From Flexibacter flexilis DSM 6793 (GTDB taxonomy: Bacteria; Bacteroidota; Bacteroidia; Cytophagales; Flexibacteraceae), in the NCBI RefSeq assembly GCF_900112255.1, contig NZ_FOLE01000005.1, forward strand, positions 186,001 through 250,000: a stretch of DNA of 64,000 nt, read 5' to 3'. The translations under genes were made by a program, and so were the position numbers. The notes below the pieces were generated by a model. That model was not told the DNA's origin, ran no database searches, and worked only from the letters and a program-made list of their open reading frames with translations. Shown here in pieces: positions 2,055 through 56,425 of the stretch; within the stretch, counting starts at the first letter, position 1; every line of letters starts with the position of its first letter.

Positions 2055-2133
2055 ACTACAAATATTTCAATCCTAACGGATTTGAAATTAGTCGTATCAA
2101 TCACAAAGCCTTTAGGCTTGGTATCTTTGTAGT
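2055..2133 (+). repeat. Composite hairpin element, copy 1 (Y-shaped, 79 bp)
   Basis: An outer inverted repeat ACTACAAA (2055-2062) / TTTGTAGT (2126-2133) encloses two mini-hairpins: AATCC-TAAC-GGATT (2069-2082) and AAGCC-TTTA-GGCTT (2106-2119). Folded as RNA or single-stranded DNA this gives a three-way junction. Related copies occur at 48489-48632, 52169-52716 and 56240-56305. It lies between the convergent AraC and dihydroorotase genes and has no coding capacity. Confidence 0.7.
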
Positions 2134-48420: not shown

Positions 48421-48488
48421 TTGATTTACAAAACATTATACAAGTGATATTATTTAAAGGCTATTAGAAAAAGTTTACCTAAGATACC

Positions 48489-48632
48489 ACACCTACGGTG
48501 TTGCAATTTTTGTGGCACCGTCTTATACTACTAATATTTCAATCCTAACGGATTTTTCACTACACAAAGCCATTCGGCTTGGCATCTTGGTAGTTTTTAG
48601 AACGGCTTCTTTCCCAAAAACGCCATAGGCGT
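48489..48632 (+). repeat. Composite hairpin element, copy 2, with extra flanking modules
   Basis: Four mini-hairpins in a row: ACACC-TAC-GGTGT (48489-48501), AATCC-TAAC-GGATT (48541-48554), AAGCC-ATTC-GGCTT (48567-48580) and ACGCC-ATA-GGCGT (48620-48632). The middle two are enclosed by ACTACTAA (48527-48534) / TTGGTAGT (48587-48594), which pair with one wobble. It fills the gap between the Crp/Fnr gene and the YedE-type gene. Confidence 0.7.
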
Positions 48633-48711
48633 GAAATCTTAATTTCCTATAGCACTATAAATAATTTTGCATCCTCCTTATCTTTGTATTTTTTAATTCA
48701 ACAAGACACTG

Positions 48712-52114: not shown

Positions 52115-52168
52115 TTTTGTAATAAATTGAATCTGAAAGAGGCATTATGTTAGTGAAAAAGAGATATC

Positions 52169-52716
52169 ACGCCTACGGCGTTCTTCTTGATGCTAAAATA
52201 ACATTCTACAAAGATGACAAGCCTAAAGGCTTTGAGTTGCACAAAACTGCCAGTATTGAAATTTTGGCAAAAATTAACGGCGGAAATATTTTTGAGCTAT
52301 AAAAAATCCATTAGGATTGGAATATTGGCAAAAATTAACGTAACAAAAAGGCTAAAGGCTTTGAGTTGCGCAAAACCGCCAGTATCGGAATATTAGCAAC
52401 ACTAACGAGGCAAAAAGATTTTGAGCTATAAAAATCCGTTAGGATTGAAATATTGGCAAAAATTAACGTAACAAAAAGGCTAAAGGCTTTGAGTTGCGCA
52501 AAACCGCCAGTATCGGAATATTAGCAACACTAACGAGGCAAAAAGATTTTGAGCTATAAAAATCCGTTAGGATTGAAATATTGGCAAAAATTAACGTAAC
52601 AAAAAGGCTAAAGGCTTTGAGTTGCGCAAAACCGCCAGTATCGGAATATTAGCAACACTAACGAGGCAAAAAGATTTTGAGCTATAAAAAATCCTTTAGG
52701 ATTGAAATATTGGTAG
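52169..52716 (-). repeat. Composite hairpin element, copy 3, expanded by tandem duplication
   Basis: Read on the minus strand, the locus begins with CTACCAATA (52708-52716) and AATCC-TAAA-GGATT (52690-52703). It ends with AAGCC-TTTA-GGCTT (52219-52232), ATCTTTGTAGA (52205-52215) and ACGCC-GTA-GGCGT (52169-52181). This is the same order as copies 1 and 2, but the interior has grown from about 25 to about 460 bp through the tandem repeat at 52219-52707. Confidence 0.65.
52219..52707. repeat. 128-bp tandem repeat, about four copies
   Basis: TATTGGCAAAAATTAACG recurs at 52323, 52451 and 52579, giving a 128-bp period. Units 52323-52450 and 52451-52578 appear identical; 52579-52707 differs only near its end. 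A diverged, shortened first unit (52219-52322) keeps an intact AAGCC/GGCTT hairpin, whereas the three later units share a C-to-G change that breaks it. There is no significant ORF. Confidence 0.85.
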
Positions 52717-56166: not shown

Positions 56167-56239
56167 TTATTGTATTGAGAGAGTAGATGCCGCCGACATT
56201 GGTAGTTATCTACTCTTTTCTAAAATTTATAAAGATGCC

Positions 56240-56305
56240 ACGCCCACAGGCGTTGGAAATAGCTGATATCGCCTTTACCCACAAAGATTACAATCCTAAC
56301 GGATT
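56240..56305 (+). repeat. Composite hairpin element, copy 4 (rearranged, partial)
   Basis: ACGCC-CACA-GGCGT (56240-56253) and AATCC-TAAC-GGATT (56292-56305) are intact. A decayed AAGCC module may remain as CACAAAGGCTTT near 56325-56336. The outer ACTAC/GTAGT stem is absent. It lies between convergent genes. Confidence 0.6.
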
Positions 56306-56372
56306 TAATTTTCAGGACAATATCACAAAGGCTTTAAAAGTTTTTTTTCTCAAAAAAATAAAGTTTATTTCG

Positions 56373-56425
56373 ATAAAACAGGCGAGGCGAAAAATTTTTT
56401 AAGTTTTTCGCCTCGCCTGTTTTAT
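56373..56425. terminator. Bidirectional terminator with 22-bp perfect stem
   Basis: ATAAAACAGGCGAGGCGAAA and two further bases (56373-56394) pair perfectly with 56404-56425 across a 9-nt loop. It separates the beta-propeller gene from convergent icd and can serve both. Confidence 0.85.

Follow-up and report, generated by a model that had tools for sequence, protein, structure and literature searches.

Short, multicopy and mostly intergenic palindromes that form inverted dimers and arrays are known from the GTAG REPs, BIMEs and REPINs with their class 2 TnpA_REP enzymes (RAYTs), in which unlike subtypes are also paired and the Y1 gene is flanked by its cognate repeats. The elements reported here resemble these systems in all these respects, but they differ in a CTAY tag placed 9 nt from the stem, where GTAG REPs carry GT[AG]G at the stem foot, in their 5-bp stems, in a second, untagged hairpin about 51 nt off, and in an enzyme assigned by its motifs to subclass 1.2 and not to class 2. 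In IS200/IS605 elements (IS608, ISDra2), the ends carry a hairpin near a short motif, which is a likeness to the tagged units of the present study, and the enzyme fold is also alike; the differences concern the inverted double-hairpin halves, the absence of a shared interior and the enzyme signature Y---Q--HH found here. For class 2, the text of PMC8266576 describes TnpA_REP as an enzyme that binds REPs in single-stranded form and cuts them at CT dinucleotides, GTAG being crucial, and states that E. coli REPs pair as y-z1 or y-z2; unlike units also make up some GTAG dimers, as described in the text of PMC3733652.

The signature Y---Q--HH is given by Quentin et al. 2018 (PMC6006769) as that of TnpA_Y1 subclass 1.2, which has REP 'no' in a table of that paper and is described in its text as generally without typical terminal IS200 hairpins and as lacking IS properties. 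The REP search reported there was centred on a 5' GT[AG]G foot, and the tagged units described below are without that foot. With subclass 1.2, as set out in the main text of PMC6006769, our system shares the enzyme motifs, the Bacteroidota centre and the one to few copies, but in many of the members studied here tagged hairpins lie next to the gene. Inverted, in part palindromic, repeats also flank the tyrosine transposases known as TIRYT, with double palindromic TIRs (Di Nocera et al. 2013, PMC3733652); compared by text description only, they differ by the GGGGWSAS motifs named there, none of which was seen here. In the running text of the open-access papers searched, including PMC6006769, PMC3733652, PMC8266576 and PMC8040213, we found no link made between subclass 1.2 and repeats, although a member may be shown in Figure 9 of PMC3733652.

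The window, that is, the whole stretch of 64,000 nucleotides analyzed here, corresponds to C5:186001-250000 of the Flexibacter flexilis DSM 6793 genome (4.25 Mb in 48 contigs, with contig C5 comprising 293 kb). The hairpins that the original prediction had named at four loci were all found where it had placed them. The inner unit consists of a CTAY tag, 9 nt and a 5-bp hairpin with a loop of 3-4 nt, and an untagged hairpin (outer unit) lies about 51 nt 5' of it. Inner stems occur as two subtypes, namely T-type (AATCC, loop mostly TAAC) and G-type (AAGCC, loop mostly TAAA). The copies in the window are composed as follows:

2056..2083, + strand: copy 1, inner unit, T-type; CTAC tag, 9 nt, AATCC-TAAC-GGATT; hairpin 2069-2082
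2105..2132, - strand: copy 1, inner unit, G-type; CTAC tag, 9 nt, AAGCC-TAAA-GGCTT; hairpin 2106-2119
48481..48502, + strand: copy 2, outer unit, untagged; ACACC-TAC-GGTGT; hairpin 48489-48501
48528..48555, + strand: copy 2, inner unit, T-type, CTAC tag; AATCC hairpin 48541-48554
48566..48593, - strand: copy 2, inner unit, G-type, CTAC tag; AAGCC hairpin 48567-48580
48619..48640, - strand: copy 2, outer unit, untagged, fourth hairpin of the element; ACGCC-TAT-GGCGT; hairpin 48620-48632
52161..52182, + strand: copy 3, outer unit; ACGCC-TAC-GGCGT; hairpin 52169-52181
52206..52233, + strand: copy 3, inner unit, G-type, CTAC tag; AAGCC hairpin 52219-52232
52304..52587, - strand: copy 3, three T-type inner hairpins with the decayed tag TTGC; stems 52305-52318, 52433-52446 and 52561-52574
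52689..52716, - strand: copy 3, terminal inner unit, T-type, CTAC tag; match C5:238687-238767 of the half-element model R1, E 5e-9
56232..56254, + strand: copy 4, outer unit, 4-nt loop; ACGCC-CACA-GGCGT; hairpin 56240-56253
56279..56306, + strand: copy 4, inner unit, T-type, tag CCAC; AATCC hairpin 56292-56305

A convincing outer hairpin was absent on both sides of copy 1, where R1, a model built from 18 sequences of the source genome, gave only weak extensions with stretched linkers (E 4e-5 and 2e-7). In copy 3, AATCC hairpins number four between 52305 and 52703, the three with the decayed tag sitting in a local tandem repeat with 128 bp spacing, and the terminal R1 match extends to 52767 across a mismatched outer hairpin. 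Copy 4 is an isolated half-element, and other isolated half-elements are present elsewhere in the genome.

In order to define the units, a finder was employed that selected on an AAAGAT stretch, CC/GG and pairing, with neither tag nor loop among the selection criteria; in 569 kb of stretches around model matches plus contig C5, it returned 186 candidate units, among them necessarily some chance hits. In profiles made from 67 of 93 inner and 46 of 60 outer units (three arrays left out), conservation of the inner unit spanned positions -13 to +14, with CTAC, 9 nt (AAAGATNNC), AANCC, a 4-nt loop, GGNTT and T, and that of the outer unit only -8 to +13, with AAGATNNC, mostly ACGCC, usually a 3-nt loop, GGCGT and T, and without CTAC. 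Inner-to-outer distances were 49-57 nt in 52 of the 53 neighbouring pairs under 100 nt, and half-element linkers measured 21-29 nt (n = 52). Among the 38 half-elements outside arrays, the mean linker identity between copies was 0.414 compared to 0.390 in shuffled linkers, and three pairs exceeded 0.7 identity compared to none in the shuffles; linker length is kept and linker sequence is free. A full element is made up of two halves in inverted orientation; between the inner stems, a distance of 31 nt was the most frequent (10 of 35). Since inner units with CTAC tags face each other, the outer stem ACTACAAA/TTTGTAGT, which had been described as enclosing the two inner hairpins, corresponds to a pair of inverted tags. 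It is present in this form, but the compensating difference claimed for it is a T.G wobble in copy 2, where copy 1 has A-T, and not a Watson-Crick pair.

At the genome level, R1 gave at least 108 matches (E up to 0.1) in at least 46 clusters in 4.25 Mb, so that the genome-wide search suggested in the original prediction returned many further copies instead of few or none. The counts for R1 and for the unit model R2 (see below) are lower bounds because only part of the first-look candidates was scored, namely 150 of 3494 with R1 in the source genome, up to 150 per genome with R2 in the family and 51 per genome with R2 in the class sample. The inner-unit pattern, with one mismatch allowed, was present at 83 sites in the source genome, at none in 22 other genomes and at none when reversed. 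Bare CC..GG hairpins were not clearly enriched in the window (20, compared to 5-19 with a mean of 12.2 in ten first-order shuffles), whereas hairpins with a AAAGATNNC-like stretch 5' of the stem numbered 37 in contig C5 compared to 13, 10 and 6 in three shuffles; hence, it is this context that marks the units. With regard to neighbouring genes, 37 clusters were classified on rough gene calls as tandem (15), convergent (12), divergent (9) and perhaps intragenic (1). Copy 3, whose right neighbour in the rough calls was an antisense ORF, is better read as tandem than as convergent because a deaminase gene on the + strand is supported as its right neighbour. The position directly after genes that had been claimed for all copies applies to the four loci of the window, but not to the whole genome, given the 9 of 37 clusters between divergent genes. 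The elements are thus short, multicopy, mainly intergenic palindromes, and they occur as inverted dimers (35 facing inner pairs) and as arrays (beside tnpA); the GT[AG]G foot of GTAG REPs was not found, the tag being CTAC/CTAY at -13, 9 nt from the stem.

Facing inner units of the source genome were unlike in 35 of 35 pairs (25 of 25 without the three arrays), each pair combining one T-type and one G-type unit or a compensated variant of either (AACCC/GGGTT, AAACC/GGTTT). Stems were likewise unlike in all five Flavobacterium stretches with two tagged units (L213, L214, L216, L217 and L218). A strict unlike-stem rule beyond the source genome was discarded, with the stems in tnpA flanks being unlike at 13 of 20 loci and alike at 7. 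In 81 tagged sites of the source genome chosen by the left arm alone, the middle stem pair was G-C (33), T-A (40), C-G (4) or A-T (1), and the non-Watson-Crick states were G-T (2) and A-C (1). Pair counts on A1 and A3 (A3 comprising 62/63 three-nt-loop units) were set aside, as their rows had been picked for pairing. The stem covariation originally read from the window reflects there mostly two fixed subtypes that face each other, but truly compensated variants do occur genome-wide, as seen at the 81 sites; together with the CTAY offset at 80 loci described below, these sites speak against an absence of covariation.

Two intact Y1_Tnp genes and one broken match scored above the Pfam cut-off in the source genome. 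One of the intact genes, tnpA of contig C10 (L002; 1489-1950, 153 aa), has the same hairpins upstream (1128-1450) and downstream, from right after the stop codon, where the first is mismatched, to 3118. This gene between arrays is the kind of partner, a Y1 transposase flanked by the same hairpins, for which a search had been proposed. No such hairpin lies near the second intact subclass 1.2 gene (L001). L002 is single-copy, with one 39% paralogue, and the near-identical gene-plus-ends copies by which IS200/IS605 elements are recognized were not found for it. The protein reached 69.4 bits as an IS200/IS605 transposase (cut-off 55) and 38.7 bits with the NCBIfam model for REP-associated tyrosine transposases, which is below the cut-off of 80 and places it outside class 2. 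Y---Q--HH is common to L002 and 12 homologues, with Y115, Q119, H122, H123, W95 and Q96 invariant in 13 of 13 rows. The subclass 1.2 motifs Y---Q--HH, DH[IV]H and WQ were present, L002's own HUH motif being DHTH; by this signature, L002 is a putative TnpA_Y1 of subclass 1.2. An AlphaFold model of the protein (30-row alignment, pLDDT 88.1, pTM 0.83) was nearest to ISDra2, IS608 and other IS200-type transposases (Z 12-13, about 105-121 residues aligned, rmsd 2.7-3.4), followed by the E. coli REP transposase 4er8 (Z 10.6, rmsd 3.3, 121 aligned).

A class 2-like Y1 gene is located at G000:C1:420872-421360 (L054, L096), matching the NCBIfam REP model below its cut-off and carrying the motifs NHVH and YIIQNPVKW; beside it lies a gene which we take to encode a restriction-modification specificity subunit. 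This class 2-like gene was dismissed as a partner, with no cluster of these units in the stretch around it (L096). The broken Y1_Tnp match (G000:C13:38239-38568, L003) contains eight in-frame stops and is adjoined by a different hairpin, TCCGCC-ATT-GGCGGA.

We also analyzed the flanks of 80 tnpA loci kept from at least 580 relatives; most of these are from Bacteroidota, but Ignavibacteria, Verrucomicrobia, Neomarinimicrobiota and Desulfonema are also represented by record title. Within 300 nt outward of the gene, 106 of 462 CTAY had a perfect 5-bp hairpin (loop 3/4) at offset 13, compared to 1-6 at each other offset from 5 to 24. Flanks read inward gave 34 of 313 at offset 13 compared to 0-5 elsewhere, and stretches at least 1 kb from tnpA 37 of 2454 compared to 2-13 elsewhere. 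As for other tags at offset 13, TTAC was followed by a hairpin in 20 of 198 cases and GTAG in few (4 of 126). Stems at the tnpA flanks include GCTCC, ATCCC, GCCCC, GTCCC, ACCCC and AGGGC. At least one distinct, strictly defined tagged unit was found within 300 nt at 52 of the 80 loci, and none at the other 28, one of which, L168, repeats the unit of L160. Among 65 tagged units at most 120 nt from the gene, 48 had another hairpin 36-69 nt nearer the gene, in 36 cases at 49-52 nt, and 19 had a hairpin on the far side, as arrays with a period of about 50 nt occur. That 0 of 48 H1 carry CTAY was set aside as proof, because H1 was defined by a search ahead of the first tagged unit, which makes the argument circular.

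Within the family, where 9 of 11 genomes have a homologue, six of seven flanks inspected by eye displayed a tagged hairpin, about 50 nt, an untagged hairpin, the gene and then the mirror order, with letters that differ from those of the source genome; L107 differs from this arrangement. With R2, a unit model made from 62 units of tnpA loci, the seven family genomes in which the best homologue reached 40% identity or more yielded at least 11-39 matches; the remaining four (0, 0, 0 and 1 matches) include the two that lack a homologue. An F. segetis-type flank pattern was present in 5 of 7 Flavobacterium genomes and in 0 of 9 others, in two Flavobacterium only beside tnpA, and two 400-kb Flavobacterium stretches contained few units. 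Direct tandem arrays of tagged units with a period of about 47-56 nt were seen beside tnpA at L200, L188, L176, L164, L136, L134 and L196. Outside Bacteroidota, Desulfonema magnum (L189, G019) has long direct arrays with a period of about 50-52 nt, both beside tnpA and elsewhere, and at least 153 R2 matches.

Co-occurrence was examined in 149 genomes drawn evenly from the class, with tnpA called by the A2 profile (E up to 1e-12) and R2 at E up to 1; some genomes behind R2 may be part of this sample. tnpA was found in 93 of the 149 genomes and R2 matches in at least 77. Three or more matches were present in 61 of 93 genomes with tnpA compared to 4 of 56 without it (Fisher p 3e-13, the genomes not being independent by descent), and the remaining 32 genomes with tnpA had fewer than three. 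Sorted by best tnpA E value, genomes with at least three matches were 47 of 49 at 1e-60 or better, 7 of 16 between 1e-50 and 1e-60, and 7 of 28 among the weaker ones. The exceptions without tnpA were G083 (25 matches), G134 (6), G089 (5) and G115 (4). In the 16 families where the listed rows show both states (36 of the genomes lacking tnpA and 52 of those with no R2 match being outside this listing), members with tnpA averaged more matches in 12 families, equal numbers in 3 and fewer in 1.

At a Chryseobacterium site compared by eye between C. candidae and 29 relatives (the best 30 of 148 matching genomes), none to three units were present, and about one unit of 60-70 nt was missing from the close relatives L231, L233 and L234. 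Orthologous stems showed C-G to T-A changes and G.T states, and also mismatches (L222, L233). At a Flavobacterium site, the four-hairpin element was found in F. foetidum and L273 and another tagged element in L277, and other Flavobacterium carried different palindromes or none; a clean junction could not be read because other repeats sit there. This comparison shows that units are gained and lost at orthologous sites, and such whole-unit gain and loss could stem from recombination between repeats. The site orthologous to L213:1290-1680 holds, across Flavobacterium species (L251-L280), at least four palindromic repeat families, among which there is a second four-hairpin composite (CCTCCAGCTTTAGCTGGAGG .. 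GGGCTTTAGCC).

Single-strand copies folded better than shuffles (z -3.1 to -5.5). The predicted three-way junction was recovered only as the RNA minimum-energy fold of copy 2; the DNA of copy 2 and both the RNA and the DNA of copy 1 gave other folds. No Rfam 15 family reached its gathering score in the window, and only a tRNA did so in 8 further loci; a described RNA family was therefore rejected for the window and these loci. A terminator scan marked hairpin 2106-2119 of copy 1 as itself terminator-like, and at copy 4 a strong terminator-like hairpin stands apart from the units, at 56376-56422. By eye, a strong inverted repeat with T's after it (ACGCCTGA..TCAGGCGTTTTTT) was also seen at 2158-2198; it seems to exceed the loop limit of the scan, which did not list it. 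A 3'-end RNA element, one of the readings offered originally, is not supported as the main one in view of the 9 of 37 divergent clusters, the terminator of copy 4 and the Rfam result, but such a role may be secondary.

The REP/BIME-like family suggested from the window is supported by the genome-wide copies and by a Y1 transposase with the same hairpins. We consider it likely that the elements are REP-type non-autonomous DNA, present or past substrates of a Y1/HUH enzyme of subclass 1.2. The best reading is a new REP-transposase (REPtron-like) class whose mobility we infer, REP-like in working, yet not a GTAG REP. The enzyme would bind the folded hairpin on an exposed single strand, with the tag at its fixed distance serving as a cleavage or guide sequence, a role for CTAY suggested by analogy with class 2; cutting and rejoining would then add, move or exchange units, which would yield arrays of about 50 nt next to tnpA and, at other places, inverted pairs. 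What the enzyme reads would be pairing, tag and spacing, and these would persist for that reason, with the stem letters free to change in matched pairs. A wider reading, which we put forward only tentatively, is a phylum-wide REP system of subclass 1.2 TnpA that follows a grammar of its own (a CTAY tag 9 nt before a hairpin; another hairpin about 51 nt off; inverted halves; inner stems always unlike in the source genome). Here, units would be maintained in place by the enzyme through the addition or exchange of single hairpin-plus-tag units, with the result that stems change in matched pairs and spacing is fixed, whereas linkers drift freely.

Where hairpin, tag and spacing are conserved but linkers drift, either upkeep by an enzyme or long-term host use may be the reason, and the persistence of units over genus-level divergence in Chryseobacterium also fits the latter. 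The elements might accordingly be host-maintained RNA or DNA structures, selected as 3'-end stabilizers, attenuators or weak terminators, with the transposase link as a relic of their origin. The pairing kept through compensated and G.T states, the units at orthologous sites of many Chryseobacterium species, the fixed spacing, the position of the four window loci after genes and the terminator-like hairpin 2106-2119 agree with this explanation. We nevertheless regard it as unlikely, since it predicts neither the sharp CTAY offset nor the tie to tnpA, the neighbouring genes are functionally unrelated, copy 4 has a strong terminator-like hairpin of its own, and 9 of 37 clusters (rough calls) lie between divergent genes, although 28 do not.

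MITEs of an ordinary IS200/IS605 insertion sequence, moving as a unit with hairpin ends, would account for hairpins bordering the tnpA gene and for an enzyme that scores as an IS200/IS605 transposase (69.4 bits, cut-off 55) and is modelled nearest to those structures. However, the hairpins are inverted on both sides of the gene and come in double sets, linkers and interiors differ between copies, and the enzyme signature is that of subclass 1.2, described in the text of PMC6006769 as without IS properties, which makes this origin quite improbable. Least of all do the elements look like chance palindromes in AT-rich intergenic DNA, an explanation of negligible probability: bare 5-bp CC..GG hairpins are indeed not clearly enriched in the window (20 compared to 5-19), but the shuffles of contig C5, the 83 pattern sites compared to 0 reversed and the single sharp CTAY offset over 80 loci contradict it.

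With REP-type substrates of a subclass 1.2 enzyme as the preferred reading, HUH enzymes described in 2018 as neither IS nor REP partners gain a candidate DNA substrate with exact rules. This would explain a class of short repeats that is common in the genomes of Bacteroidota, and would provide a second enzyme-repeat pairing, besides that of the class 2 RAYTs, for asking why bacteria keep domesticated transposases.
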